64,000 bases of DNA. It comes from Bacteroidales bacterium (GTDB taxonomy: Bacteria; Bacteroidota; Bacteroidia; Bacteroidales; BM520). A program made the position numbers and the translations under genes. The stretch lies in contig JAEEQW010000002.1 in assembly GCA_016285515.1 (NCBI GenBank), forward strand, positions 1-64,000, read 5' to 3'. This document shows positions 12,765 through 61,507 of the stretch, piece by piece (position 1 is the stretch's first letter; each line of letters begins with the position of its first letter). Below the pieces are notes generated by a model that was not told the origin of the DNA, ran no database searches, and saw only the letters and a program-made list of their open reading frames with translations.

Positions 12765-12781
12765 TTTTATTGAAATCAAAC

Positions 12782-14308
12782 ATGGACAGTGTCATATTAT
12801 CAGGATTGATTGTAAAATGGTTTATGCCGATATTCGCATTCAAGATTTTTGAGAATGCGGGATACAAATGGTGGCATACACTTATACCTATATACAATTA
12901 CTACGTTTGGATAAAAATAGTTGGAAAGCCGTGGTGGTGGCTTATAATAGCAGCAATACCATTCATAGGTTATTTCATCATGTTCCTGCTGCTTGTCGAA
13001 ACTGCCAAGGCTCATGACAAACACGCATTGTGGCAAGAGGCTCTGGCAGCCGTTGTACCTTTTGTCTATCTGCCTTACCTCGGTTATAAGGCCACATATT
13101 ATCCGCCTGACAAACGACCGGAATTCAAGAAGAGTTCTCTTCGCGAATGGGTTGATGCGATAATTTTCGCTGTTGTCGGCGTGGGTATTCTGAGGATGTT
13201 TATGTTTGAAGCCTATACCATTCCTTCATCTTCTATGGAAAAGACTCTGCTTGTGGGTGACTATCTGTTTGTCAACAAGATGACATACGGTTCACGAAGG
13301 CCGATGACACCTTTATCCGTGCCTTTCATCCACAACACTCTTCCTCTCAGCAAGCGCAATTCATATTGCGACAAGGTACAGCTCAAATACTACCGCTATC
13401 CTGCCCTGAAAAAACTGAAAAACTATTCGCCCATAGTTTTCAACTACCCGGAAGGAGATACCGTATGCACGGCATTCCAGAGCAATGCAAGCTATTATTC
13501 GCTTGTACGCAACTATGGAAGAAGAAATGTGATCACAAGGAAGGACATGTTCGGCGACATAATCTACCGCCCCGTAGATAAGAGGGAAAACTACATAAAA
13601 CGCTGCATCGCCATTCCTGGTGACACCATGCAGGTCATTGACGGATACGCATATATCAACGGCGTAAAGGAAAATCATAAGGGAAAACTACAGTTCACCT
13701 ACACTGTCAAAACCAATGGCAGCCAATTCAGGCCGGCAATACTCAAGGATGAACTCAAAATCACTGAAAGATACACTTTCAACGCTGCCGACAGCACTTA
13801 TAACCTTACCCTTACCGATGAAGCAGTTGAAATCCTGAAAAAGAATTCTTCCGTTATCTCCATCACCAAAAACATTCAGCGCAAAGAAGACTATTTTGCC
13901 GAGAACTGTAAAATGTATCTGTTTCCGTATGATACCGCATATCAGTGGACTGTAGATAATTACGGACCTTTGTACATTCCAAGGAAAGGTGACACTTTGC
14001 ACCTTACCTTAAAAAATATCTGTTTGTATGAAAGACTTATTGACGTTTATGAAGACAATGACATTGAAGTCAGAAACGGCAAGATTTACATAAATAACGA
14101 ACAAACAGACACTTACGTCACAAAAATGGACTATTATTGGATGATGGGCGACAATCGTCACAATTCAGCCGACTCCCGTTTCTGGGGTTTCGTCCCCGAA
14201 GACCATATCGTGGGCAAACCAGCCTTCGTATGGATGTCTCTTGACAAAGAGAAAGGACTCTTCAACGGAAAAATCAGATGGAACAAAATGTTCAGAACTA
14301 TACATTAA
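12782..14308 (+). CDS. lepB: Signal peptidase I with N-terminal multi-pass membrane domain
   Basis: 508 residues from the ATG at 12782; the upstream TTG is a poorer start. The first ~115 residues hold several hydrophobic helices with the YKWWHTLIPIYNYYVW pattern of DUF5684-like N-terminal extensions. The S26 domain follows: PSSSMEKTLLVGDYLFVNK with nucleophile S151, YIKRCIAIPGDT with general base K273, and GDNRHNSADSRFWGFVP near the end. A ~170-residue insertion separates the Lys motif from the last box. It removes signal peptides at the inner membrane. In related genomes lepB is followed by wbqC; here other genes intervene. Confidence 0.9.
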   Translation: MDSVILSGLIVKWFMPIFAFKIFENAGYKWWHTLIPIYNYYVWIKIVGKPWWWLIIAAIPFIGYFIMFLLLVETAKAHDKHALWQEALAAVVPFVYLPYLGYKATYYPPDKRPEFKKSSLREWVDAIIFAVVGVGILRMFMFEAYTIPSSSMEKTLLVGDYLFVNKMTYGSRRPMTPLSVPFIHNTLPLSKRNSYCDKVQLKYYRYPALKKLKNYSPIVFNYPEGDTVCTAFQSNASYYSLVRNYGRRNVITRKDMFGDIIYRPVDKRENYIKRCIAIPGDTMQVIDGYAYINGVKENHKGKLQFTYTVKTNGSQFRPAILKDELKITERYTFNAADSTYNLTLTDEAVEILKKNSSVISITKNIQRKEDYFAENCKMYLFPYDTAYQWTVDNYGPLYIPRKGDTLHLTLKNICLYERLIDVYEDNDIEVRNGKIYINNEQTDTYVTKMDYYWMMGDNRHNSADSRFWGFVPEDHIVGKPAFVWMSLDKEKGLFNGKIRWNKMFRTIH

Positions 14309-14332: not shown

Positions 14333-16312
14333 ATGGCAGATCAAAAAAAGCAACTGACAGAAGAACAACTAAAATTCCTAAACCTGTTATCCGACAAGTT
14401 TCCAACAATACAGGCAGCTTGTACAGAAATAATCAATCTGGAATCAATTCTCAACCTACCTAAGGGAACCGAGCACTTCTTGACCGATATTCACGGAGAA
14501 TACGACACTTTCAGCCATATTCTCAGAAACGCATCGGGAATGGTAAGGAAAAAAATAGACGATGTTTTCGGCAATACCATAAGTGAGAAATCTAAACGCC
14601 AACTGGCGACCTTGATTTATTATCCTGAGCAAAAACTTGAGATAATAATGAAAACCGTTGATGATTTGGAGAACTGGTATTCAGTAACTTTACGCCGTCT
14701 TGTTGACGTGTCACGTGCCGCTGCCGACAAATACACAAGGTCGAAGGTACGTAAGGCCATGCCTAAGGATTATGCGTATATCATTGACGAGCTTCTTAAC
14801 GAAAATCCATCCAAGAAAGAGCCATACTATGACAAGATTATACAGACCATAATTGACATAGGCCGCGCAAATCACTTTATCATTGCCATCAGCTATTTCA
14901 TCCAGCGTTTGCTCATCGACAAACTGCACATCATAGGAGACATCTATGACAGAGGACCTTATCCCGACAAGGTGATGGACAAGCTCATGGAGTTCCATGA
15001 TGTTGACATCCAGTGGGGCAACCACGATATCTTATGGATGGGCGCTGCATCAGGCATAAAGGCATGTATTGCGACAGTCGTCAGAATATCAACAAGATAT
15101 GACAACCTTGACACTCTTGAAGATGTATATGGTATAAATATGCTTCCTCTCGCAACCTTTGCCATGAAATATTACGGCAACGACCCATGTACCGTATTTA
15201 CCCCTAAGACATCGGGACCGTTGGACAAATACGATTCTTCAAACCTCAATCTCGTAGGCATGATGCACAAGGCCATTTCCATCATACAATTCAAAATCGA
15301 AGGTCAGATTATCAAAAGAAATCCCGACTTCAAGATGGAAAGCCGACTGCTGCTTGATAAAATCAACTTCGAGAAAGGAACTGTCATGATTGGTGACAAG
15401 GAATATCCGTTGCTTGACACGAATTTCCCGACAGTTGACCCCAAAAACCCATACCAGCTTTCACCTGAGGAAGATGAACTCATGGAAAAATTGAAATTCT
15501 CATTCCTCAACAGCCAGTCTTTGCAGCGTCATATCAAATTCTTCTTCTCATCAGGCAGCTTATATCTCAAATGCAATGGCAACCTGCTGTTCCACGGCTG
15601 CATACCTCTCAATGAAGACGGTTCGTTCAGAGAGACCGAGCTCGACAACGTAAAATATAAAGGCATGAGCCTTTGCGACAAATTCGAGACTATGACCCGT
15701 GCAGCGTACATCAACAGATGGTCGCTCGATGACAACTCCAAGGAATTCGACTACGTATGGTATATGTGGTGCGGTCCGGATTCACCTCTGTTCGGCAAAG
15801 ACCAGATGACCACATTTGAAAGGTATTTCATCGAAGACAAGGCCACCCACAAGGAACACCTTGACCCATTCTACACTTACCGCAATGACAAGGAAACCTG
15901 CATAAATATCCTCAAGGAATTTGGCCTGCCGGTTGAAAACTCACATATTATCACGGGTCACGTACCTGTTAAAGTTATTAAAGGTGAAAGTCCAATCAAA
16001 GCCGACGGAATGCTCCTTGTAATAGACGGAGGCATGTCGAAACCTTACCAGAAAGAAACCGGTATTGCAGGATTCACGCTGATGTACGACTCCTACAAAC
16101 TGACCGTTATCGAACACCATCCTTTCGTCTCACCGCAAAAGGCCATAGAAGAGGAACTCGATATCAAATCCACAAGAGCTCTCGTTGCTCAAAGCGCTTA
16201 CAGAATAAAAGTTGGAGACACCGACAAAGGCATTGAATTAAAACAACAAATCAAAGACCTTAAAATGCTGCTTGAAGCCTACAAGTCAGGAGAAGTCATC
16301 GTTAAAGGTTAA
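14333..16312 (+). CDS. fbp: Fructose-1,6-bisphosphatase class III
   Basis: 659 residues, the usual size for the Firmicutes/Bacteroidota class III enzyme. It hydrolyses fructose-1,6-bisphosphate in gluconeogenesis. The metallophosphatase-type motifs are present: TDIHGEYDTF near residue 50, GDIYDRGPYPD near 202, WGNHDILWMGA near 228, and ITGHVPVK near 543. It lies 24 bases after lepB and 33 bases before the first C10 protease. A phosphofructokinase at 41969 catalyses the opposing reaction. Confidence 0.93.
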   Translation: MADQKKQLTEEQLKFLNLLSDKFPTIQAACTEIINLESILNLPKGTEHFLTDIHGEYDTFSHILRNASGMVRKKIDDVFGNTISEKSKRQLATLIYYPEQKLEIIMKTVDDLENWYSVTLRRLVDVSRAAADKYTRSKVRKAMPKDYAYIIDELLNENPSKKEPYYDKIIQTIIDIGRANHFIIAISYFIQRLLIDKLHIIGDIYDRGPYPDKVMDKLMEFHDVDIQWGNHDILWMGAASGIKACIATVVRISTRYDNLDTLEDVYGINMLPLATFAMKYYGNDPCTVFTPKTSGPLDKYDSSNLNLVGMMHKAISIIQFKIEGQIIKRNPDFKMESRLLLDKINFEKGTVMIGDKEYPLLDTNFPTVDPKNPYQLSPEEDELMEKLKFSFLNSQSLQRHIKFFFSSGSLYLKCNGNLLFHGCIPLNEDGSFRETELDNVKYKGMSLCDKFETMTRAAYINRWSLDDNSKEFDYVWYMWCGPDSPLFGKDQMTTFERYFIEDKATHKEHLDPFYTYRNDKETCINILKEFGLPVENSHIITGHVPVKVIKGESPIKADGMLLVIDGGMSKPYQKETGIAGFTLMYDSYKLTVIEHHPFVSPQKAIEEELDIKSTRALVAQSAYRIKVGDTDKGIELKQQIKDLKMLLEAYKSGEVIVKG

Positions 16313-16345: not shown

Positions 16346-18469
16346 ATGAAAATCAAATCATTACTCGTCATTGCAATCGCAATATTAGCATCAATGCTCA
16401 CACAGGCAAAAGATGTAGATATTATCACTGCTGAAAAAGTGGCAAGGAACTACTATTATCAGGAGCAGAACTTTTATGCCACACCTATTGATTTCAGTGA
16501 AATAAAAATAATTAACAGGTTTGTTGAATCAAGAAACGGTGCCAATCTTCTGTACATCTTTGAAATACAGGGAGATGGTTTCATTGTCGTTTCTGCAGAG
16601 GATGTCATGACTCCTGTCATCGCACACATCACAAAGAACGAACCATGGAATCTGGAGAATGCCAATCCGGAATTCAAATATGTTATGGACGAATATCTCG
16701 ACATGGTAGAATACACCCGTGAGAATTCGCTGCCTCAGGAAGCCGAAGTGGCAGCTGCATGGGCTTTATACACAACCGATGACGCTGCAACCCTTATCTC
16801 CTCAAAAGAAGACAGAGATGAAATCGGTCCGTTACTGCGTACCGTCTGGAATCAAGATTATCCATACAACTATTACTGTCCACCTGCTCCAGGCGGTCCC
16901 GGAGGAAGATGTTACGCTGGATGCGTGGCCACCGCAATGTCCGTTCTGATGGAATACTGGAGATGGCCGGAACATGGAAGAGGTTCAACAACTTTCTATT
17001 CAACAATCGGCGGTTTTCTTATTGCAGACTACGAGGACACCTATTACGACTGGGATGCAATGCTGACATCAATAAACCAAAACAGTGAGGATTGTGCAAT
17101 ATTTGCCAATGCACTACTTCAATATCATTGTGGTATCGGGGTGCAGATGAATTACGGTCCTGACGGTTCAGGTGCTTACTCATTTACCGTTCCTTATGTT
17201 ATGAAGACTTTCTTCAGGTATTCGGAAGACATCGATGTGATATCAAAAAGTGACGGTTACACACAAGAGCAATGGAACGAAATAATCTATGATGAACTAT
17301 CACAGCAGCATGTACTATACTATTCCGGTTGTAGTGAAAGCGGCTGTCATGCCTTCAACTGCGATGGCTGGCGTAACACGTCCGGAACAGATTACCACCA
17401 TTTCAACTTCAACTGGAGCGGTTCGGGCAACGGCTGGTATGTCTCAACCAATCCAGGCGGGTTCAACACCAGTAACGACCTTGTCATCAACGCCGTACCT
17501 GACACCGTCAACGAAACATACCCAATGTATGCATCCGGCCAGAAAGTTCTTACCGACAGAGTAGGCAGAGTCATGGATGGAAGCGGTCCTGTCAACAATT
17601 ACATTCCTACTGAAGCTTCATGGCTAATCGACCCGGCAAACGACCCTGCCGATTCAGTAGTAAACATCACAGTATCATGGGAATTCTTCAAACTTGCTGC
17701 CGGCGACTATGTAAGGATTTATGATGGTGCCACTACCGACGACCAGTTGCTCGGCGAATACACAGGCACATCGCTGCCAAGCTCAGTAACTTCAACAGGC
17801 AAACAACTCCTCATAACCTTCTCGGCAGTAGGCTCAGGTGAAGGCTTCACTTTCATATACACTTCAACACGTCCTACATACTGCTCCGGACTGACTCAGA
17901 TAAATGATGACCCATGTACAATTGAAGTGGCTCCTGAAGGAATGTACTACCAGCCTTTATCATTGTGCAGATACAAAGTGGATTATGGTAAACTTGGAAT
18001 AAAAATATCATTCGACTACCTCGACACATACGACCAAAACGACTTTCTTCAAATTTATGACAGCAAAACCGATGAACTGTACACATTCTACGGAAGTGAA
18101 ACCCCTGAAGACCTGTACATTGAAGGCTTCGCTCTCCTGACTTTCAAATCCGACAATTTCAACTCAAGCAATTACGGATTCAGACTTACATGCACCTCAT
18201 GGGACGGCATTGAAGACTGTGAAGAGCAATCTTCCGATATTGTGCTGTATCCTAACCCCGCTTCCGAGACAGTAAGAATTGAACTGACTGCCGATAACGA
18301 TTTTGAATGCAAACTAATCAGTCCGCAGGGTGCCGTAGTTTACTCCGAAATGTTTGATGCGTCAACCAGCAATATCAATCTCAACGTCTCAAACCTTCCA
18401 AAGGGCGTTTATGTTTTGCAACTAATTAATAATGAGGGTATTTTAACAAAGAAGCTCATTATCGAATAA
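16346..18469 (+). CDS. C10 (streptopain-like) cysteine protease with CUB-like domains and type IX sorting domain, copy A
   Basis: 707 residues. Signal peptide to about 21, a Spi-like propeptide at about 25-150, then the C10 catalytic domain: WNQDYPYNYYCP, RCYAGCVATAM with nucleophile C193, and SGCHAFNCDGW with H335. Two CUB-like beta domains follow at about 395-510 and 515-625, the first with VRIYDG and the second with DYLDTYDQNDFLQIYD. The C-terminus is a type A sorting domain (VLYPNPASETVRI to GVYVLQL). It should be secreted by the type IX system as a zymogen and mature by propeptide removal. The usual Gly before the catalytic His is Cys here. The neighbour is a paralogue of identical length. 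Confidence 0.88.
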   Translation: MKIKSLLVIAIAILASMLTQAKDVDIITAEKVARNYYYQEQNFYATPIDFSEIKIINRFVESRNGANLLYIFEIQGDGFIVVSAEDVMTPVIAHITKNEPWNLENANPEFKYVMDEYLDMVEYTRENSLPQEAEVAAAWALYTTDDAATLISSKEDRDEIGPLLRTVWNQDYPYNYYCPPAPGGPGGRCYAGCVATAMSVLMEYWRWPEHGRGSTTFYSTIGGFLIADYEDTYYDWDAMLTSINQNSEDCAIFANALLQYHCGIGVQMNYGPDGSGAYSFTVPYVMKTFFRYSEDIDVISKSDGYTQEQWNEIIYDELSQQHVLYYSGCSESGCHAFNCDGWRNTSGTDYHHFNFNWSGSGNGWYVSTNPGGFNTSNDLVINAVPDTVNETYPMYASGQKVLTDRVGRVMDGSGPVNNYIPTEASWLIDPANDPADSVVNITVSWEFFKLAAGDYVRIYDGATTDDQLLGEYTGTSLPSSVTSTGKQLLITFSAVGSGEGFTFIYTSTRPTYCSGLTQINDDPCTIEVAPEGMYYQPLSLCRYKVDYGKLGIKISFDYLDTYDQNDFLQIYDSKTDELYTFYGSETPEDLYIEGFALLTFKSDNFNSSNYGFRLTCTSWDGIEDCEEQSSDIVLYPNPASETVRIELTADNDFECKLISPQGAVVYSEMFDASTSNINLNVSNLPKGVYVLQLINNEGILTKKLIIE

Positions 18470-18474
18470 TTTTA

Positions 18475-18482
18475 TAAATTTG
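18475..18482 (+). promoter_or_regulatory. -7 element between the two protease genes
   Basis: TAAATTTG (18475-18482) fits TAnnTTTG, starting 6 bases after the first protease's stop. No clear -33. It would let copy B and the thioredoxin be transcribed apart from copy A. Confidence 0.4.
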
Positions 18483-18525
18483 CAGATTCTTAATTGAAAT
18501 TTTTTTTAACCAAAACAATATTAAA

Positions 18526-20649
18526 ATGAAATTCAAATCATTACTCACATTCAGCTTAATTGCGTTGTCGGCAATAGGTATATCAGCAAAAAGCGTTGAC
18601 AAGACAACAGCCGAAAAAGTCGCAAGAAACTATTATTTTCAGCAGGCACACTATTTCGATACTCCAATATCGATTGATGCCATCAATTTTTCTGATTCAT
18701 ACGTAAAAAGTGTTGATGACATACCTGTCATGTATGTTTTCGACATTGAAGGCGGCGGTTTTGTTCTTGTATCTGCCGATGATGCCATGTATCCTGTATT
18801 GGGATATTGTTATGAAGAAGGTGCCAAATTTGACATCGAGTCCCAGGGGCACAATTATAAGTCATTCATCTCCAGCATGATGTATGGAATAAAAGATCTT
18901 ATAACATCAAAAGCAAAGCAGGAACCTGCAGTTGCTGAAGAATGGAAAACATACTCGACTGACAATGCAACAGAGTTAATTACTGCAAAAGATGATGTTG
19001 AAGTAGGTCCTCTAATCACAGCCGTATGGAATCAGGATTATCCTTACAACTATTACGCTCCATTGTGCAGTGCAGGCGGCTCAGGCGGAAGATGTTACGC
19101 AGGCTGTGTGGCTACTGCAATGGCCGTTCAGATGTTCTACTGGGGTTATCCATACGTCGGCGAAGGCTCTTCAAGTTACTATTGCAGCGGTTATGGTATG
19201 CAGAGCGCTTACTACAATGAAGCATATTATGACTGGAAAGCGATGCCTACATCAATTACCAAGAACGATGAAACAGATGCAGTGCTGAACATAGCTCTCA
19301 TACAGTATCACTGCGGTGTTAGTGTAAGAATGCAGTTTGACCCGAATGGTTCAGGTGCTTATTCCGGTGATGTTCCTGCAGCTCTGCACGATCATTTCAA
19401 ATATCCATACGCAACATACGTCCAAAAATCCAATACAAGCACATGGGAAACCATGCTGATGGGTCAGCTTGATAGCGGCTATCCTTTGTATTACAGCGGC
19501 CATAGTCCTACAGAAGGCGGTCACGCATTCAATTGCGACGGATATCGTGTGGTTGGAAACAACAAAACTTTCCACTTCAACTTCAACTGGAGCGGATATA
19601 AAAATTCCTGGTACACTTCAAGTTCTCCAGACGGTTTCTCACAGGACCAGGCTGTTGTTAAAGATTTCTACCCTGACCCAACAGATTATCCAACATATTT
19701 CGAAAACGTGGAAGTCACATCCAAAGTAGGCAGAATCGATGATGGCTCAGGCCCTGTAGAAGACTATCTCCCAGGAACATACAACACATGGCTCATCAAT
19801 CCGCAATCAGAATATGACACCATCAAAACCATCACACTGTCATGGGAATCATTCGACATTGCAGAAGGTGATGTGGTAAACGTTTATGATGGCAGCGATA
19901 CTAACGCTGAACTTCTCGCCTCTTACACAAGCGGTGAGACACCAGGCTCGCTGACTTCAACAGGGAACAAGATGTTCGTTGAATTCTACGGCAATAATTC
20001 AGCTCCAGGATTTGTATTCACTTACACTACCTCCAGACAGAAATACTGCAATACCACTAATCCTATAAGTTCAATATACGGTACCATCGTCAGCAATCCT
20101 GAAGACAAGCACTACAATCCTAAAACCCTGTGCCGTTGGAACTGTACTTATCCTGAATCAACAGATGGTGGTTATATCAAGTTCAACTACCTTAACACTT
20201 ACGATGAAAACGATTTCGTAACTATAACCGATTTTGACACAGAAGAGACATACAAATTCTACGGCACTACACCTGATGAAATTATAAACTATGGAAATAA
20301 AGGCTTCCAACTGGTATTCAGAACCGACGGCTTCATCGAAGAAGGCAACGGATTCTCAGTTTATTTTGCCGACTGGAGTTACGATGGTATGAGAGAATTC
20401 GGGCTTGATGATATCAGAATCTATCCGAATCCTGCAACCGACAAACTATACATCACCATGCCGAATATAGAGGCACAGGACATCAAATACCAGATAGCCA
20501 ACTCCAATGGCATGATAGTTGCTGAAGACACTATGTGCAGCTCTGACATTACAAGCAGCATAAATATCAGTTCATTACCGGCTGGTGTTTATGTCGTCAG
20601 ATTCACCAGCAACACTGGTGTGGCCACAAAGAAATTTGTTGTAGAATGA
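18526..20649 (+). CDS. C10 cysteine protease with CUB-like domains and type IX sorting domain, copy B
   Basis: 707 residues, same architecture and length as the gene before it. Signal peptide ends near ISA; propeptide with TAEKVARNYYFQQ; catalytic WNQDYPYNYYAP, RCYAGCVATAM with nucleophile C194, and GGHAFNCDGY with H333 in the classical form. Two CUB-like domains carry VNVYDGSDT and YLNTYDENDFVTI. The sorting domain runs from IRIYPNPATDKLYI to GVYVVRF. Conservation is strong around the active site and weaker in the CUB domains, which suggests an old tandem duplication with diverged binding. The stop overlaps the thioredoxin start by 4 bases (ATGA). Confidence 0.88.
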   Translation: MKFKSLLTFSLIALSAIGISAKSVDKTTAEKVARNYYFQQAHYFDTPISIDAINFSDSYVKSVDDIPVMYVFDIEGGGFVLVSADDAMYPVLGYCYEEGAKFDIESQGHNYKSFISSMMYGIKDLITSKAKQEPAVAEEWKTYSTDNATELITAKDDVEVGPLITAVWNQDYPYNYYAPLCSAGGSGGRCYAGCVATAMAVQMFYWGYPYVGEGSSSYYCSGYGMQSAYYNEAYYDWKAMPTSITKNDETDAVLNIALIQYHCGVSVRMQFDPNGSGAYSGDVPAALHDHFKYPYATYVQKSNTSTWETMLMGQLDSGYPLYYSGHSPTEGGHAFNCDGYRVVGNNKTFHFNFNWSGYKNSWYTSSSPDGFSQDQAVVKDFYPDPTDYPTYFENVEVTSKVGRIDDGSGPVEDYLPGTYNTWLINPQSEYDTIKTITLSWESFDIAEGDVVNVYDGSDTNAELLASYTSGETPGSLTSTGNKMFVEFYGNNSAPGFVFTYTTSRQKYCNTTNPISSIYGTIVSNPEDKHYNPKTLCRWNCTYPESTDGGYIKFNYLNTYDENDFVTITDFDTEETYKFYGTTPDEIINYGNKGFQLVFRTDGFIEEGNGFSVYFADWSYDGMREFGLDDIRIYPNPATDKLYITMPNIEAQDIKYQIANSNGMIVAEDTMCSSDITSSINISSLPAGVYVVRFTSNTGVATKKFVVE

Positions 20650-21098
20650 AAAAAGCATTAATAACACTTGTTACAGTTTTCGTATGTCTGACATCAAACA
20701 TTGCCTTCGGGCAGGATGCCAAAGACGTTGAAATAGTGCATCTCACAAAAGAGATGTTTCTGAAGGAGATATGGAATTTTGAGAAGAATCCACAGGAATT
20801 CATATATGAAGGCAAAAAACCATGCATCATAGATTTCTATGCTTCGTGGTGCGGCCCGTGCCGTATGTTTTCAACCACCCTTCAGCAAATAGCCAATGAA
20901 TACAAAGGCAAAGTGATTTGTTATAAAGTCAACACCGAAGAGCAAAAAGAACTATCCGCCATATTCGGTGTGAGAAGCATTCCGGCTATTCTATTCGTCC
21001 CCAAAAAGGGCAAACCGCAGATGGGCATGGGCAATCTCCCAAAAGAAACTGTAATTAAAGCCATTGACGAAATCCTACTGACTGATAACAAAAAATAA
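20646..21098 (+). CDS. Periplasmic thioredoxin-family protein
   Basis: 150 residues. Signal peptide ending FGQ (about 23), then a thioredoxin fold with FYASWCGPCRMF (redox CGPC near residues 70-73) and the cis-Pro loop VRSIPAILF. It should catalyse thiol-disulfide exchange outside the cytoplasm; whether it oxidises or reduces cannot be told. Its start is inside the stop of the upstream cysteine protease, which implies coupled translation. A role in protecting or activating the protease thiol, or pairing Cys residues in the CUB domains, is inference. Confidence 0.85.
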   Translation: MKKALITLVTVFVCLTSNIAFGQDAKDVEIVHLTKEMFLKEIWNFEKNPQEFIYEGKKPCIIDFYASWCGPCRMFSTTLQQIANEYKGKVICYKVNTEEQKELSAIFGVRSIPAILFVPKKGKPQMGMGNLPKETVIKAIDEILLTDNKK

Positions 21099-21100
21099 TT

Positions 21101-21676
21101 GTGACTATCTTACCGGTTACATATTTTGGACCTGTCGGCTGGTGGAACAAACTCGATGTCTCAGACTCAACAGTATTCGACATCAACGAAAACTACATCA
21201 AACAAACATACCGCAACCGTTGCAGAATTCTTTCCTGCAACGGTTTGCTTACTTTATCAATACCAGTAAAGAAAGTTGACGGAAACCACACACTGCTGAA
21301 AAACATGCGCATCGACAACAACCAGAACTGGCAGATACGGCACTACAGAGCAGTGTTAAGCGCATACAAGGCTTCCGCCTTCTTCGATTACTATATTGAC
21401 GACATCATACACATCTGGCAGAAACATTACGATTTTCTTGCAGATGTATGCATCGACTCCTACGAGACCATCTGCAATATCATGGACAAACATTATGAAG
21501 CGACTTTTTCCTCATCATATATAATTCCTGATGAAACAGATATGGATTTACGCAAAGACGAGGAATTTGATTTCGGACCATTTGACGAATATTGTCAGGT
21601 TTTTTCTGACAGATTCAGTTTCTTCCCAAACTTAAGCATTATTGACTTATTATTTAACAATGGAACCTCAAAATAA
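21101..21676 (+). CDS. WbqC family protein
   Basis: 191 residues from a GTG two bases after the thioredoxin stop; no ATG fits. It begins ILPVTYFGPVGWWNKL and has YRNRCRILSCNGLLTLSIPVKK, then a helix-rich half with HYRAVLSAYKASAFFDYY, as in the WbqC family of cysteine/histidine-bearing proteins found near O-antigen and core genes. Biochemistry of the family is poorly known. In other Bacteroidota it commonly lies just after lepB. Its last 17 bases overlap the next gene. Confidence 0.82.
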   Translation: MTILPVTYFGPVGWWNKLDVSDSTVFDINENYIKQTYRNRCRILSCNGLLTLSIPVKKVDGNHTLLKNMRIDNNQNWQIRHYRAVLSAYKASAFFDYYIDDIIHIWQKHYDFLADVCIDSYETICNIMDKHYEATFSSSYIIPDETDMDLRKDEEFDFGPFDEYCQVFSDRFSFFPNLSIIDLLFNNGTSK

Positions 21677-23780
21677 CAACAGCACAACTCACAACGACAC
21701 AGAAAAGTCGGAATCATCATGGAATGATTTCCGCGACAAAATGCAAACCGGAAATTTAGGTCTGGTCGTCAGAACCATAATACTTCTGACCATAATAGCC
21801 ATTGCGATGAACGTTATTCCAGACATAACCACATTCAATTACAAATATGAAATCGGCAGCACATGGAATTATCCGACTCTCGAAGCACCCATAAGTTTCC
21901 CGTTATACAAGTCAAGCGAACAACTGATAAGGGAAAAGAAAGAAATTTCAAAAAACGTCAAACCTTTCTATATTTTTGATGAAAATCTGACAAACCAACA
22001 AATAAACAATTTCAGAAACGCCATCAGGACGGTTGACAAAAACAGCCATCACACCAGCCAAATTGACAATATTATATCAACTTTCACTGACATACTGAAT
22101 ACAGGTGTGATAAAACTGGATGATGAAATAACCAACAAAGACTCGGCTTATATAATCTGTCTTGAAAAAGGCAAATACGTATCTTACTCATTCTTAGGTC
22201 AATTATACACTACCGAAAGAGCATACTCATATATCCAATCCAAAGCTAAAAACCTTCCAAATGACATTGCACTGTCGATTGAAAAGATAATCCTTGAAAA
22301 CCTCCGTGAAAATATAACTCTTGACAAAAACAAGACGGATGCCATTATAAATGAAAGATATAAAAATCTTTCCGAGACCTACGGATTAGTGTCGAGAGGT
22401 TCCCTGATTGTCACAGAAGACGAAATTATAACGTACGACACATACAACAAGCTCAATTCCCTTAAGACCTATTACGAAAATAATCACAGAAAAAACGATT
22501 CTATAAATGTCCGTATAGCCAACTTTCTGTTTTTTTGCATCATCATCCTGGCATTCTACCTATACCTGTACATCTACGAGAAGAATTTGCTGTTAAACTG
22601 GCAAAACTTTCATCTGATCACCATCGTAATAGGTGTAACTGTATTTCTCGCAGTCTTACTACAATGGCTCAATCACAAGTATGTGTATATAGTCCCGATA
22701 TGTATCATACCAATCATATTACGAGCGTTTTATGACAACAAGGTCGCCTTATGGGGACTTTTATTGACGACTTTGCTGATAGCGGTTGTGACCTCAGGCG
22801 GATTCAATTACATAATAGTGACCATAGTCACAGGAATCATCACGATTGCATGCATTTCCAAAATCGAAAGACGCGGACAATATTTCGCCATAATCTTTCC
22901 AATTGTCATATCATACGTTGGATTGACAATCCTCAGCGAAATCGTTACAACAGGCAAAATCATACATCTCGACACCCCTGTTCTTCTCTACTATATCATA
23001 AATGCTGGGTTGACACTGACGGCAATGCCGCTCGTTTTTCTCATCGAAAAACTGTCGGGAAAAACCACCGACATAAGTCTCATAGAGTATGCCAACACCA
23101 ACAACAAGCTATTACGGCAGTTCAGTGAAGTGGCTCCAGGCACGTTTGAGCACAGCATACAAGTTGCAAACCTCTCAGAAAGAGCCGCACGCAAAATAGG
23201 CGCTAATGTCCTTATGGTTCGCACAGGCGCATTGTATCATGATATAGGCAAAATGTCCTGTCCGAACTATTTTACAGAAAATCAAGCCAAAAGCAGTAAT
23301 CCGCACGATGAGCTCAATGACCCTAAGAAAAGCGCAGACATCATATTCAAACACGTATCCGATGGAGTTGAAATGGCTAAAAGGAACCGCATTCCAAAAG
23401 ACATCGCAGGTTTTATTTCCACACACCACGGAACACGCCTGCACCGCTTCTTCTACAATAAAGCAGTTGAAATGTACGGAAAGGAAAATGTGAACGAAAA
23501 CGATTACCGTTATCCTGGCAACAATAAGCCAAACTCTCGCGAGACGGCTATCGTAATGATGGCTGATTCAGTTCAGGCAGCATCGAAATCCTGGGACGAC
23601 ATAGCCGACACCAATGCCGCCATACAGCGGATCAAAAACACCGTCAATTCAATCATTGACTCTCAAATTGCCGAGAACCAATTCATCAACACCAATCTCA
23701 CATTCAAGGACATCAATGAGATAAAAGCCACATTCATTGATTATCTGATAGATATTATGCACAAAAGAATTAGATATTGA
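21660..23780 (+). CDS. pgpH: 7TM HD-domain phosphodiesterase, PgpH type (c-di-AMP hydrolase)
   Basis: 706 residues from the ATG at 21660, inside the end of wbqC. One N-terminal helix, an extracytoplasmic 7TMR-HDED domain (about 50-275), seven hydrophobic helices (about 285-470), then a cytoplasmic HD domain with FEHSIQVANLSERAA, RTGALYHDIGKM (H527, D528), NPHDELNDPKKSADII and THHGT. This architecture is that of Listeria PgpH, which cleaves cyclic di-AMP to pApA. The substrate here is inferred from architecture. C-di-AMP controls potassium and osmolyte transport in many bacteria, relevant to the ion transporters further right. Confidence 0.85.
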   Translation: MEPQNNNSTTHNDTEKSESSWNDFRDKMQTGNLGLVVRTIILLTIIAIAMNVIPDITTFNYKYEIGSTWNYPTLEAPISFPLYKSSEQLIREKKEISKNVKPFYIFDENLTNQQINNFRNAIRTVDKNSHHTSQIDNIISTFTDILNTGVIKLDDEITNKDSAYIICLEKGKYVSYSFLGQLYTTERAYSYIQSKAKNLPNDIALSIEKIILENLRENITLDKNKTDAIINERYKNLSETYGLVSRGSLIVTEDEIITYDTYNKLNSLKTYYENNHRKNDSINVRIANFLFFCIIILAFYLYLYIYEKNLLLNWQNFHLITIVIGVTVFLAVLLQWLNHKYVYIVPICIIPIILRAFYDNKVALWGLLLTTLLIAVVTSGGFNYIIVTIVTGIITIACISKIERRGQYFAIIFPIVISYVGLTILSEIVTTGKIIHLDTPVLLYYIINAGLTLTAMPLVFLIEKLSGKTTDISLIEYANTNNKLLRQFSEVAPGTFEHSIQVANLSERAARKIGANVLMVRTGALYHDIGKMSCPNYFTENQAKSSNPHDELNDPKKSADIIFKHVSDGVEMAKRNRIPKDIAGFISTHHGTRLHRFFYNKAVEMYGKENVNENDYRYPGNNKPNSRETAIVMMADSVQAASKSWDDIADTNAAIQRIKNTVNSIIDSQIAENQFINTNLTFKDINEIKATFIDYLIDIMHKRIRY

Positions 23781-23788
23781 ACAAAAAA

Positions 23789-24550
23789 ATGTTAGGAATA
23801 TCACTTCTCCCACAAATACCAATGCGCGCAGAAAAATCACATCGCGCAGAAATGGTCTCACAGATTCTCTTCGGTGAAACATACGAAGTCATTGAATACA
23901 GCGAAGGCTGGATGCATGTCAAAACCGATTTCGACTCATATAAAGGCTGGATAGATGCAAGACAGTTCACCAATTATACCGGCAACCGACAAGAATCCAT
24001 GACCATCAAAGACAAGATGATAACTGTTGCTGATGAAAACAACAATGAGTTCATAATATCTGCCGGCAGCATAATTACAGTCCCTGACAAAAACGGACGC
24101 TTCAATGTCAACGGACAAAATTTTACTGTCAAAGGTACCTTTGGCACCACATCGGGGACAATTCTGGAAACGGCAAAAAAATTCATCGGTTGCCCATATC
24201 TTTGGGGCGGTAAAACATTCATGGGATTCGACTGTTCAGGTTTCGTTCAGACTGTCTTTAAACTGTGTGACATAAATCTCCCGAGAGATGCATCCCAACA
24301 AGTCAACATAGGTGAAACTCTAAGCATAGTCCAGGAAGCCAAAGGAGGAGAACTCGCATTTTTCGGTGATGAGGAAAACATCACTCATGTTGGCATACTC
24401 ATGGACTCCGAGAACATAATTCACTGCAGCGGAAAAGTTAAAGTGGAACGCATCGACAACAATGGTATTTTCAATGGCAATGAATACACTCATTTGCTAA
24501 GGACCATTAAGGTTATTAACAACTTTATTAACAACTTTATTAACATTTAA
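23789..24550 (+). CDS. NlpC/P60 (C40) peptidase with SH3-like domains
   Basis: 253 residues from the ATG at 23789. No signal peptide is visible. The SH3-like region (about 1-110) includes MRAEKSHRAEMVSQILFGE, followed by the C40 domain with YLWGGKTFMGFDCSGF (catalytic C149), ITHVGIL (H200) and IIHCSG. It resembles cytosolic dipeptidyl peptidase VI enzymes that split gamma-D-Glu-diaminopimelate bonds during peptidoglycan recycling. The last residues (NNFINNFINI) come from a short direct DNA repeat. It lies 8 bases after pgpH. Confidence 0.85.
   Translation: MLGISLLPQIPMRAEKSHRAEMVSQILFGETYEVIEYSEGWMHVKTDFDSYKGWIDARQFTNYTGNRQESMTIKDKMITVADENNNEFIISAGSIITVPDKNGRFNVNGQNFTVKGTFGTTSGTILETAKKFIGCPYLWGGKTFMGFDCSGFVQTVFKLCDINLPRDASQQVNIGETLSIVQEAKGGELAFFGDEENITHVGILMDSENIIHCSGKVKVERIDNNGIFNGNEYTHLLRTIKVINNFINNFINI
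24514..24548 (+). repeat. Short tandem repeat at the end of the C40 gene
   Basis: Three tandem copies of a unit like TTATTAACAACT run into the stop codon. They encode repeating Asn-Asn-Phe-Ile. Such arrays can change length by slippage, here altering only the C-terminus. Confidence 0.6.
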
Positions 24551-28965: not shown

Positions 28966-31900
28966 ATGACAACACACAACAACAGTAAATTAGGCACCAC
29001 ATCAGGAGTATTTCTTCCATCGCTTCTGACCATCGTCGGGGCAATTATGTTCCTGCGATTGGGTTGGATAATCCAGCATGGCGGGCTGATGCAGTCAATT
29101 TGGATAGTCATCACTGTCTTCGCAATATCCCTGATTACAGGATGTTGCCTTTCGTCAATTGCAACCGACAAGAAGATACAGAATGACGGCATATATCATA
29201 TACTTTCGAGAAGTCTTGGGCTGCCGATGGGAAGCACCATCTGCATTATGATGACACTTGCCTTGATTTTCAGTGCCGCATTGCAGATAATAGGCATATC
29301 AGAATCCCTGCTCGACATTTCCAAAGCAAGCAATTTCCTTCATATTGCACCATCAGCCGCATCATACAGAATTATCGGTTCGATATTGTTACTACCTGTC
29401 TTCGCATTGGTGATGATATCCCGTAAATCCACATTCATTCAGAAATTCAAATATGTGGTCGGCCTCACCATCATCCTTGCAACCATTTCCGTCATAGCCG
29501 GTTTATTTACAAAAGAAGACATTCATCCTCTTGTACCAAGTACAGGAACCGCATCCGACGGTCACTCATGGATTTATATTTTCAGCATATTTTTCCCTGC
29601 ATTATCAGGTTTTGCCACCGGTCTCGCCAATTCAACAGGTTTGAAGAACGCAAAGAAATCCATTCCGAGAGGGATTATTTTCGCAATAATCACAAGTACC
29701 GTCATATATCTTTCAGTAATAATACTGCTTGCGTATGAAGTCAAACCCGACATCCTCAAGACAACCAATTATCTTCCTTCGATATCATGGAATGCCACGA
29801 TAACATTTATATGCTGCTGGATATCACTTGTTTTCATAGCCATAAATGCTCTTACAATCGGATCCGACATAATTCTATCCATGGCTCGTGACAAGGTGCT
29901 GCCAGAGTTCTTCGCCCATTCCTCTGACCATTCTGACAAGCCGGTCATCCACATAGCAATCATATTTGTCCTCACCGAATGTGCAATACTCATCGGTGAT
30001 TTCAACACCTTGGCACGAATAACATCATTTTTCCTGCTTGTTTCATACGCGCTCATCAATCTTGCGCTGATGCTTGAGAAATGGACGAACCCGGATTTCC
30101 GTCCCACATTCAATGTCAGCAAATATATAGGTCTCATCGGATTGTTTATATGCAGTATTGCCTTATACGACATTAATCGCTACGGGATGTTAGGAACAGT
30201 AATTGCCGTAATTCTGCTCTACTTTTTCATCAGACGCAAAAAACTTCTGCTCGAATATGATGATATATGGCAAAACGTACTTCTCGCCATCACAAAAACA
30301 TCTATTTCAAGAATAAACAAAAGAAAACTCGAAAACAGAACGTGGCAGCCCAATATCATCGTTTTCAGCGGTGACAAAGACCAGCGGCCGTATCTTGTAG
30401 ATTTCGGAAAATGGATTGCAGGCAAACATGGATTTGTAAGCAACTTCAACATCACAACATCAAAAGAAAAAAAGAACGCATACAAAAACTCACGTCGTGA
30501 CAGCAATGTCATTGAAAACAAAATATTTCCGTCAAACGACATATACAGCGGAATAGAGACCGTGGCAAGTGTATATGGATTTGCCGGGATCGAACCCAAC
30601 ACCGTATTGTTAGGGTTCAACAGCACCGCCAAGAATCGCGAGAGATACATAACCCTGCTTGCCAACATATCCAAACTCGACAAAAATATCCTTCTCATCC
30701 ATTACAACGAAGACAACGGCTATGGAAACAAGAAGAATTTCGACGTTTGGGTTACTCCGGGAGAAAGAGACAGCCTGTTCGCGCTCAATGTAATCAAGCT
30801 TATTAGCAATTCAACCGAATGGTCACAATGCTCGCTCAGAATCAAAGTGGTGAACAGCAACAATTCCTCATACAATCTTGTGTATAACAAAGTTGAGGAA
30901 ATAATGGCACAACTTCGAATAAGCGGTGAAATCCTAATCATCAACAACGAACTTGAAGACAAGCCGGTAAAAGACTTAATCGCCTCACATTCGACCGATG
31001 CAGATGTCATCTTCATTGCCGTACCCCCTAACGGAAACTATAACGAGAAATACGACTACATGTCCAACCTCTCGCAAATCGACAAGACTATCATATTCGT
31101 CAAGGCCTCAACCGAGTTCCAGTCAATAGGTAACCTCGACATCATCACCAAACAGCTGTTGCAACCCGAACAGACAACAATCACAGAACAGGATGTCGAA
31201 CTGCAACTGCCTATACGTCAGGAAGCCGCATCATTCTTCGTTGACCTTGACAAACAGGTCCAAACAGCCATAGACAAATCATTGAACAACCGTTTTGACC
31301 TGATTTCCAAATATTTCAAAACCAATATCGAGTACATACTCCAAACTGTAAAAAACAACTACGTTCAGACAAATTCCCCGGGGAGATTCCGTCACATCGC
31401 ACATATATCAGGAAAAACCATCAAACAAAAGTTTGTGGAATTCATCAAAAACATACTGCCCGAAATACACAATCTTATTTTAGGCAGCAGTAGGGATTTC
31501 CTCAACGAAATGTCAACAATATGTGCTTCTGTACCTAAAACATTCACAGTATTTTACGAAGAAAATCTATCATATCCTTCCAATAACGACACTCACGACA
31601 TCATCAAATTCAAGAAGAAACTCGCACGTTATTTCAAACACAACAGAGAAGGATTCTACCCTTACGAAGTCAAAATCGACAAGTTCATAACCAACAGGTT
31701 GGATGCCATGTACAACGAAATGATGACCAAAGCATTCGACCAATTCAAGGATTATTGTCTTTCGTATTATTTCAATGTCAACAACATAATCAATTCCATT
31801 GATGACGCCAATGCAATAATAAACGGTTCCTGCAACCTTGAAGGCTTCAATTTCGATGAGGCAGTTGAGAACATATATTCTCACATTGAGACATCCAATG

Positions 31901-34005
31901 ACAAAAACAACAAGACAGTCAATGAGATAAAGAACACTCTTAAGGCTATAAAGAACAAATATTTTGATGAAATACGCAATTATTTTGACGTTCTCAACTT
32001 CGGTGAAATCAAAGTCAAATCCAATGCTGTTAACTGTAACAGCTGTTCAGACGCAGTAACTGACAAATTCGACAGCCTCAGCACAATACTGCCGGCATTG
32101 TTTAACAGACTGGTACTCAACGCCGACCTCACAATCTTCAAAATAAAACTCAAGAGCTATTGTTCTGAAACGCTATCCATCATAACTGATTTCATCAACA
32201 ACAAAGTCATCCCGTTCCATGAGGCATTCATCAGCGAAATCCAGGAAAACAAAAACTTAGAGCTCGTTGAGACGTCCTCCGAATATGACATGAAATCTGA
32301 CATGTTCTCACATCTCAGTGAAATCAACGACAAAATAAACAAGAGTATTCTTCGTTTTCCATCCGAAATAACAATTCTCGACAATCAGGCAGTGGCATGC
32401 CTTGGGGATGAAAACATTCACTCAGTGCATTCATCCAACTTCGCTGCATCGCGACTGCTTGACAATTCAGTGCTCTACTATTATTCCAACAACTTAAAGA
32501 AACAGCTCAACCTCCTCAGTTCCAAAGTTGACATTTCACTCGACAAGCACAAAGACATCATCACACAGCTGTCATTCACCAACGAAGACAATGAAGAGCA
32601 GAAAGATGCCATCATTCTTAACATCTACAATCTGATAATTGACCTCAAAAAATCGCTGAACGAAACATGCCACGAAATACAGTCAACTGAAACCATTACT
32701 GACGAACAACTGCAAATCGAACAGTTCATTGACTCTTCCCACAATCTGCACAACATCATCAGCACTAACATCAACGATAAGAAAAAGGAGACAATTCTTT
32801 CACTGCGTGAAAAGATATCCGTTTCATTCCACAAGACACTGTCGAAAATCTTCTATCGCCAGAACTCAAGCCTCAAATTTGCCAAGAATCTCCAGCAGAG
32901 AAATTCCGACAATGAACTTCTGAAACTTTATATCAATGCAACCAACAAAATATCGCTGAAGCCTGAAGTTGACCAGACACTCCCATACTCCTACAAACAG
33001 TTATTCATCAATAACCAGCAGTACAACAAGGAATTATGGGTCGGAAGAGTCAGGGAAACAAACGACTTCAACGTTCTGCTGAGTCAGTACAACAGTCTGA
33101 AAGCAGGAGCGATTATGGTTACTGGAGGCATAGGCTCAGGCAAAACCTTCTTCTCTTATCACGTTGCCAAGACAGCATTTCCGGACCAGCAGATATTCAC
33201 CATAAAATCCGTCACCGGCGGAAGTGCATCTGTCAGCAAGTTCGAGACTTCATTCCTCAGAGCCATCGAAATGCAGAATATATCTTTATTCAAGGCTATC
33301 CGCGAAATTCCTAAAGGCTCCATTTTCATCCTCGACAATATCGAACAATGGTGGCACCGCGGTGACAAAGGCAATGATGTGATAAAACTAATCATCGACT
33401 TGGTAAACAAATACAGTGAAAACTATCTGTTTATTTTGAATTCAAACACTGAAGGCCTTAACGCTCTGCAACTTACCACCAACATACGAGATATAATAAT
33501 CGGTACTGTCCATCTGCTTCCGTTCAGCGCTGAAGAAATCGAAGCCATCATCACAAGACGTCATAAGGCAGGAAACATGCATATATGCATTGACAACAAG
33601 AATGAAAAACTTCTGCGTCCATGGCACTATGCACAACTGTTCCTGCAATATGACAAATTAACGGCTGGCAACATCAAATCAGCCTTGAGCACATGGCTCG
33701 CATGTATCGACAAAGTTGAAAACGATACCATATTCATACATCATCCTGAGGCTCCGAACTCATTGCCGTTCAATGAATTAACAAAACAACAGATTATATT
33801 TCTCGTACAGTTCATAATACATAACAATATGTCATACGAAAGGATGCAGGCAATTTACAATCGCCCGATATCAAGTCTGAAACAGGATGTCAACGTGCTT
33901 ATTAGGTTAAGGCTTCTTGAAAAGAAGAGCGAAAATGTTATCGGAATAAACAATATCCTATATCCATTTATTATTGAGGAACTTAACAACATAGAAATGA
34001 TTTAA
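28966..34005 (+). CDS. SLC12-type cation-chloride cotransporter fused to a large C-terminal P-loop ATPase region
   Basis: 1679 residues, no internal stop. Residues about 10-430 form ~12 membrane helices with SLC12 hallmarks: SGVFLPSLLTIVGAIMFLRLG at the start and FFPALSGFATGLANSTGLK in the middle. Residues about 455-735 match the cytoplasmic C-terminal domain of SLC12 proteins (IIVFSGDKDQRPYLVDF, FDVWVTPGERDS, ADVIFIAVPP). A further ~620 residues are helical, Asn/Lys-rich and unrecognised. Then comes a P-loop domain: Walker A GGIGSGKT at 1387-1394, Walker B FILDN with D1457, and a likely winged-helix tail. The transporter part probably moves Na/K with chloride; an ATPase on such a secondary carrier is unexpected. 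It could be a regulatory STAND/AAA-type switch. Followed 4 bases later by an MscS channel gene. Confidence 0.75.
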   Translation: MTTHNNSKLGTTSGVFLPSLLTIVGAIMFLRLGWIIQHGGLMQSIWIVITVFAISLITGCCLSSIATDKKIQNDGIYHILSRSLGLPMGSTICIMMTLALIFSAALQIIGISESLLDISKASNFLHIAPSAASYRIIGSILLLPVFALVMISRKSTFIQKFKYVVGLTIILATISVIAGLFTKEDIHPLVPSTGTASDGHSWIYIFSIFFPALSGFATGLANSTGLKNAKKSIPRGIIFAIITSTVIYLSVIILLAYEVKPDILKTTNYLPSISWNATITFICCWISLVFIAINALTIGSDIILSMARDKVLPEFFAHSSDHSDKPVIHIAIIFVLTECAILIGDFNTLARITSFFLLVSYALINLALMLEKWTNPDFRPTFNVSKYIGLIGLFICSIALYDINRYGMLGTVIAVILLYFFIRRKKLLLEYDDIWQNVLLAITKTSISRINKRKLENRTWQPNIIVFSGDKDQRPYLVDFGKWIAGKHGFVSNFNITTSKEKKNAYKNSRRDSNVIENKIFPSNDIYSGIETVASVYGFAGIEPNTVLLGFNSTAKNRERYITLLANISKLDKNILLIHYNEDNGYGNKKNFDVWVTPGERDSLFALNVIKLISNSTEWSQCSLRIKVVNSNNSSYNLVYNKVEEIMAQLRISGEILIINNELEDKPVKDLIASHSTDADVIFIAVPPNGNYNEKYDYMSNLSQIDKTIIFVKASTEFQSIGNLDIITKQLLQPEQTTITEQDVELQLPIRQEAASFFVDLDKQVQTAIDKSLNNRFDLISKYFKTNIEYILQTVKNNYVQTNSPGRFRHIAHISGKTIKQKFVEFIKNILPEIHNLILGSSRDFLNEMSTICASVPKTFTVFYEENLSYPSNNDTHDIIKFKKKLARYFKHNREGFYPYEVKIDKFITNRLDAMYNEMMTKAFDQFKDYCLSYYFNVNNIINSIDDANAIINGSCNLEGFNFDEAVENIYSHIETSNDKNNKTVNEIKNTLKAIKNKYFDEIRNYFDVLNFGEIKVKSNAVNCNSCSDAVTDKFDSLSTILPALFNRLVLNADLTIFKIKLKSYCSETLSIITDFINNKVIPFHEAFISEIQENKNLELVETSSEYDMKSDMFSHLSEINDKINKSILRFPSEITILDNQAVACLGDENIHSVHSSNFAASRLLDNSVLYYYSNNLKKQLNLLSSKVDISLDKHKDIITQLSFTNEDNEEQKDAIILNIYNLIIDLKKSLNETCHEIQSTETITDEQLQIEQFIDSSHNLHNIISTNINDKKKETILSLREKISVSFHKTLSKIFYRQNSSLKFAKNLQQRNSDNELLKLYINATNKISLKPEVDQTLPYSYKQLFINNQQYNKELWVGRVRETNDFNVLLSQYNSLKAGAIMVTGGIGSGKTFFSYHVAKTAFPDQQIFTIKSVTGGSASVSKFETSFLRAIEMQNISLFKAIREIPKGSIFILDNIEQWWHRGDKGNDVIKLIIDLVNKYSENYLFILNSNTEGLNALQLTTNIRDIIIGTVHLLPFSAEEIEAIITRRHKAGNMHICIDNKNEKLLRPWHYAQLFLQYDKLTAGNIKSALSTWLACIDKVENDTIFIHHPEAPNSLPFNELTKQQIIFLVQFIIHNNMSYERMQAIYNRPISSLKQDVNVLIRLRLLEKKSENVIGINNILYPFIIEELNNIEMI

Positions 34006-61505: not shown

Positions 61506-61507
61506 CG

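Follow-up and report, generated by a model that had tools for sequence, protein, structure and literature searches.

An exported thioredoxin beside tandem C10 proteases in a Bacteroidales genome: probably a general periplasmic TrxP in an inherited neighbourhood

Two secreted cysteine proteases of peptidase family C10 stand in tandem before a gene for an exported thioredoxin in the genome of a Bacteroidales bacterium. They lie in what we call the window, the whole stretch of DNA that we analysed, 64,000 nucleotides in length. We consider it probable that the thioredoxin is a general periplasmic TrxP in an inherited gene neighbourhood, with the proteases as possible, non-exclusive clients. On this account two C10 proteases precede an ordinary TrxP because both belong to an old inherited Bacteroidales block, of which the adjacency in the window is a derived, tight version. 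A dedicated partnership between protease and thioredoxin is possible but less likely. Coordinates are collected in Table 1.

Table 1. Positions of the C10–thioredoxin locus and its neighbours in the window
Feature	Position	Strand	Basis
Signal peptidase I, upstream, same-strand run	12770..14308	+	Profile matches
FBPase_2 gene directly upstream of protease 1	14333..16312	+	ORF, Pfam, neighbourhood comparison
C10 protease 1, 707 aa	16346..18469	+	ORF, Pfam, TIGR04183, phmmer
Parts of protease 1: signal peptide; I69/Spi propeptide aa 21-119; C10 domain aa 168-365; CUB aa 440-497 and second CUB; type IX sorting domain aa 634-706			
TAAATTTG in 56-nt gap between the proteases	18475..18482	+	Matches Bacteroides -7 box (presumed consensus)
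C10 protease 2 (Trx-proximal), 707 aa	18526..20649	+	ORF, Pfam, structure model
Parts of protease 2: I69 aa 21-117; C10 aa 168-363; CUB aa 397-496; second CUB to about aa 616; type IX sorting domain aa 632-706			
Catalytic Cys194 codon, protease 2 (RCYAGC, extra Cys at -4)	19105..19107	+	Sequence; invariant; alignment column 31
Catalytic His333 codon, protease 2	19522..19524	+	Invariant in alignment
ATGA overlap, thioredoxin start and protease 2 stop	20646..20649	+	Sequence
Exported thioredoxin, TrxP group, 150 aa, without sorting domain	20646..21098	+	ORF, Pfam, PDB matches
CGPC active site of thioredoxin	20850..20861	+	Sequence
WbqC-family gene, most constant TrxP neighbour	21101..21676	+	ORF, Pfam, neighbourhood comparison
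PgpH-like HD protein (presumed name), conserved-block member	21642..23780	+	HDIG match; neighbourhood comparison
NlpC/P60 protein, conserved-block member	23777..24550	+	Pfam; neighbourhood comparison

The two proteases are paralogues, 41% identical, and Pfam finds Inhibitor_I69, Peptidase_C10, CUB and Por_Secre_tail in both. Their Peptidase_C10 scores are 172 and 162 bits (Pfam cut-off 26), with C194 and H333 invariant, and their propeptides are of I69/Spi type (37.1 and 44.6 bits, cut-off 25). Type A sorting domains (TIGR04183, 48.7 and 48.6 bits) mark them as type IX cargo, and the same genome has a PorU-type sortase above cut-off. Pfam counts one CUB domain per protease. Residues 423-621 of protease 1 match cubilin in phmmer, and the AlphaFold model of protease 2 (pLDDT 83.9, pTM 0.75, 27 rows), nearest to prointerpain A and the SpeB zymogen, also matches the multi-CUB chains PCPE-1 and neuropilin, so that two CUB domains in each protease is a fair reading. 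ORFs, Pfam, phmmer and model thus agree with the first-pass annotation, which had described two 707-residue paralogues with propeptide, C10 domain, two CUB-like domains and type IX sorting domain. The zymogen fold and the catalytic Cys and His are held in common with interpain A and SpeB; unlike these C10 peptidases, the window proteases have a pair of CUB domains and a sorting domain for type IX export in addition, and they are Cys-rich (14 and 11 cysteines). Streptopain homologues occur in 26 genomes of S24-7 ('Ca. Homeothermaceae'), where, like the window proteases, they are among the proteins likely to be secreted by the type IX route; a link to thioredoxin is not mentioned in the part of that paper available to us (PMC4936053). 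We rejected a candidate promoter between the two proteases: motifs like TAAATTTG occur at chance frequency in the window, and the -33 box is absent there.

The thioredoxin frame matches Pfam Thioredoxin (PF00085) at 2e-22. In the PDB its sequence is closest to 2l5l and 3hxs/3hyp, the latter of which we take to be B. fragilis TrxP. With its CGPC motif and an N-terminal signal, judged by eye, it is by sequence a member of the Bacteroides TrxP group, a common bacterial type. Scanning with Pfam and TIGR04183 found no type IX sorting domain in it, which should restrict its contact with the protease to the periplasm. Its ATG occupies 20646-20648 and the TGA of protease 2 occupies 20647-20649; coordinates and sequence alike confirm the earlier description of an exported CGPC thioredoxin whose start codon overlaps the protease stop. 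B. fragilis TrxP, also exported, represents the closest characterised sequence group. In the accessible part of its description it is reported to have oxidase as well as reductase activity and to complement a dsbC mutant of E. coli, and its gene sits in another operon, different from the C10–TrxP arrangement of the window (PMC6158253).

The favoured reading implies a simple path. TrxP would be exported by Sec and would remain in the periplasm, acting as a general thiol-disulfide reductase/isomerase probably recharged by DsbD. Cys-bearing C10 precursors would traverse the same compartment ahead of type IX export, which would make them plausible TrxP clients among many. A DsbD_TM match is present in the window's genome and in six of the eight genomes of its family, while profile searches for VKOR and DsbB found neither in any of the eight. 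This combination makes DsbD the likely electron source and speaks against recharging of the thioredoxin as an oxidase by VKOR or DsbB.

The window's genome (G000) is 2.58 Mb in size and 98% complete. It carries nine C10 genes, seven of them outside the thioredoxin locus, and two strong thioredoxins, the window's TrxP and one in a 111-residue frame elsewhere that is probably cytosolic. A second tandem C10 pair lies at G000:C41:230276-232803 with no TrxP nearby. Two tandem genes (G000:C19:16978-20301 and 20731-24036) each score above the type IX sortase cut-off, and a sortase-like paralogue is found beside PorU in most family genomes (also G001-G004, G007). Within the family, which comprises eight genomes in two genera, the best TrxP match lies directly 3' of a same-strand C10 gene every time. 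C10 lies within 5 kb of all eight WbqC-adjacent TrxP loci and of none of the six other TrxP paralogues. The family has 35 C10 matches in total, 11 of them in the thioredoxin locus. Gaps between C10 and TrxP are -4, -4, 10, 70, 71, 72, 75 and 75 nt, the 4-nt overlap being confined to G000 and its relative G004 (thioredoxins 96% identical). A further -4 junction joins PgpH and NlpC downstream, within a compact same-strand run that begins well upstream, so the ATGA overlap is not special to the C10–thioredoxin pair.

Outside the family the picture changes. Across 295 genomes of the order, with TrxP counted as present at E 1e-25 or better, TrxP occurs in 245 and C10 in 195; 160 genomes have both, 35 have C10 only, 85 TrxP only and 15 neither, and the two show no genome-level association (odds ratio 0.81, p 0.62). 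Those without TrxP at this threshold include the C10-rich genomes G087 and G190, with seven and nine C10s, respectively. We compared 100 TrxP regions, 13 from the family and 87 that are the best-scoring loci outside it. There is no C10 within 5 kb in 63 of these best 87, which as top-scoring rows are not a random sample and some of which are cut by contig ends. C10 lies within that distance in 19 of the 33 that adjoin WbqC vs 5 of the 54 others among the best 87; all five of the latter have a zinc-ribbon gene beside the thioredoxin, and in one (L144) the C10 gene is on the other strand. Direct same-strand contact, with a gap of at most 150 nt, is seen at the eight family loci and at four others among the best 87 (L101, L102, L104, L185). 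A named collection gave C10 near 6 of 80 TrxP loci, all six in the same block, and none in the locus for the remaining 74. Seen from the protease side, a sample of 80 other regions (L188-L267) contained 93 C10 ORFs, none of which has TrxP within 6 kb; this is not an unbiased rate, since already-linked rows, along with second rows per genome, were left out of the sample. Of 109 C10 arrays with the CUB-CUB form, 31 have a TrxP from among the matches listed no more than 8 kb away, with up to three candidates scored per genome; this share may be too high, since the query alignment came almost wholly from thioredoxin-linked loci, or too low, since TrxP was limited to matches listed.

C10–TrxP linkage is therefore far from random and almost confined to one neighbourhood. 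The first-pass annotation had suggested surveying C10 loci for adjacent thioredoxins, and had held that a thioredoxin found equally often without C10 neighbours would tell against its idea. Adjacency did prove constant in the family, and beyond it the counter-observation was largely what we found: C10-free TrxP loci abound in both locus sets, and the order-wide genome counts are indifferent. In the open-access papers that we searched we met no description of a C10–thioredoxin linkage.

What the linked loci share is a block in the order FTCD-HutI-[C10]n-zinc ribbon (opposite strand)-TrxP-TrxP-WbqC-PgpH-NlpC-TonB, where HutI, PgpH and TonB are labels that we gave to clusters of amidohydrolase, HD and unscanned proteins. 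In 18 of the 24 order-level loci with C10 the zinc-ribbon gene, drawn between C10 and TrxP, adjoins the thioredoxin; most of these loci therefore do not have C10 and TrxP in a single transcription unit. The ancestral Bacteroidales form would have run from FTCD and HutI through the C10 genes, the opposite-strand zinc ribbon and two TrxPs to WbqC, PgpH and NlpC. At the window family's locus neither the zinc-ribbon gene nor a second TrxP is left, FBPase/LepB stand in place of the HutI side, and C10 has stayed with TrxP; these losses would have brought C10 directly against TrxP, and in two sister species the genes would then have come to overlap by 4 nt. The block breaks both ways. In the f5 genomes the proteases were kept with HutI and without TrxP (L247, FTCD-HutI-C10-C10; L238, C10-C10 near HutI), and another f5 locus (L162) has TrxP-WbqC without C10; in f58 the block is kept as HutI-ZNR-TrxP-WbqC, again without C10 (L171). 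For the C10–TrxP junction itself this amounts to one retention, in the window family, and one separation, in f5, too few for any rate. The zinc-ribbon gene itself is small, about 142 aa (L110:9050-9520 and orthologues), and conserved on the opposite strand upstream of TrxP pairs. We considered it as a MarR-type redox regulator (BmoR-like) and dropped the idea, a transposase-type zinc ribbon being its sole Pfam match.

In the C10 tree (164 rows from 170 ORFs, partial and duplicate domains dropped) the thioredoxin-proximal proteases fall in more than one clade. Different ancient C10 paralogues adjoin TrxP in the window's genus (g1) and in the other genus (g2); the two types occur together in arrays elsewhere, and the two proteases of the window cluster with the other g1 sequences. 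A weakly resolved TrxP tree (160 rows, 116 columns) places the family locus TrxP with the longer TrxPs that come first in the pair; the short ones in second place make up a clade of their own. At 24 other C10-bearing loci the first TrxP is lipoprotein-like in 22 cases, by a simple lipobox pattern, and 19 have CKPC or CRPC (e.g. L136, L139, L101, L185), the active-site pairs of the set being CKPC, CRPC, CAPC and CQPC. Those of the family are lipoprotein-like in none of eight, with CGPC in five and CRPC in three; the TrxP of the window is of the soluble kind with CGPC.

The proteases of the window carry a Cys four positions ahead of the catalytic one. Among aligned C10s, a Cys at this -4 position is found in 18 of 26 thioredoxin-proximal sequences, 7 of 21 array sequences (further from the thioredoxin in the same run, and tallied separately) and 22 of 117 unlinked ones. 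The raw comparison of linked with unlinked, which ignores kinship, gives Fisher 1.2e-6; on tree-independent pairs there is no association, in eight pairs within which the Cys seldom differs, so that power is low. With no support from independent pairs, we dropped a redox switch at the -4 Cys as evidence, and covariation of Cys columns gave no clear disulfide partner for it. Nor is Cys richness a reason for the thioredoxin, since linked, array and unlinked C10s all have a median of 10 cysteines. The CUB-CUB form is found in all 46 full-length C10s of the block vs 20 of 99 unlinked ones; it is a lineage trait that may or may not have relevance to the thioredoxin. Some unlinked C10 domains sit in ORFs of roughly 1500 to 2350 residues, unlike the 707-residue form (L203, L205, L188, L216).

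How, then, are the alternatives to be weighed? A dedicated redox partner is an explanation we regard as possible but doubtful: the co-translated TrxP would reduce or isomerise the cysteines of the C10 precursor in the periplasm, so that the catalytic Cys is free at the type IX translocon. Family-wide same-strand adjacency, the ATGA overlap, and cysteine-rich proteases with the raw enrichment of the -4 Cys speak for it, and the last of these fades on independent pairs. Most C10s of the window's own genome lie away from the thioredoxin, TrxP is missing, at the threshold used, from 35 of the 195 genomes with C10, the two genes do not co-occur beyond expectation, the active-site pair varies, and unlinked C10s are just as rich in cysteine. 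In a narrower form, which we think rather unlikely, the family-specific TrxP would be a periplasmic reductase/isomerase dedicated to type-IX-bound CUB-CUB C10s, whose catalytic and -4 cysteines it would hold reduced until export; if true, type IX cargo would pass a redox checkpoint before it is exported. Some of our observations do count against the inherited-neighbourhood reading. Adjacency persisted throughout the family although the locus had lost its HutI side, as well as the zinc-ribbon gene and one of the two TrxPs, an outcome that selection for C10–TrxP co-expression would also give, and different C10 paralogue clades were kept beside TrxP in different genera. To these can be added the same-strand contacts outside the family, the linked thioredoxin being the sole strong TrxP match in G000 and G004, and the uniform CUB-CUB form of the block proteases. 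Function, too, can preserve inherited neighbourhoods.

Two other readings move the protease aside or the thioredoxin outside. TrxP might be tied functionally to the WbqC, PgpH and NlpC envelope genes, with C10 as bystander: 14 of the 33 WbqC-adjacent loci among the best 87 have no C10, and trxP and wbqC are 2 nt apart in the window. The other 54 of the best 87 do not lie beside WbqC, and we judge this reading improbable; we know of no biochemical link between TrxP and WbqC, PgpH or NlpC. Extracellular protection, in which a secreted thioredoxin would keep the exported protease in its reduced form at the cell surface, seems to us extremely unlikely, as the window thioredoxin has no sorting domain and should stay periplasmic. 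There is a surface thioredoxin in P. gingivalis, HBP35, which has thioredoxin activity in a bacterium that likewise uses a C-terminal-domain secretion route; it reaches the surface with a C-terminal sorting domain of its own, where the window thioredoxin has none (PMC2907840). According to the part of that paper available to us, hbp35 mutants are unchanged in Rgp and Kgp gingipain activity (PMC2907840), a precedent against a thioredoxin requirement in another family of secreted cysteine proteases. Of the maturation or protection system first proposed for the locus, periplasmic folding or maturation fits the anatomy; the extracellular half does not, and the linkage is not general.

The main lesson of the survey is a caution about guilt by association at C10 loci, since conserved adjacency at this one can be explained by an inherited block. 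The locus also offers a natural test pair for the periplasmic redox state of type IX cargo; to our knowledge, redox control of cysteine-bearing type IX cargo in the periplasm has not been worked out.

Elsewhere in the window, the 1679-residue ORF at 28966-34005 resembles a transporter of the amino acid permease/SLC12 type and has a long extension at its C-terminal end, in which residues 1382-1525 match AAA_14 weakly. At 55998-63820 a gap of 2 nt separates a bacterial alpha-2-macroglobulin (1835 residues) from a PBP1C-like protein after it, a known pairing.
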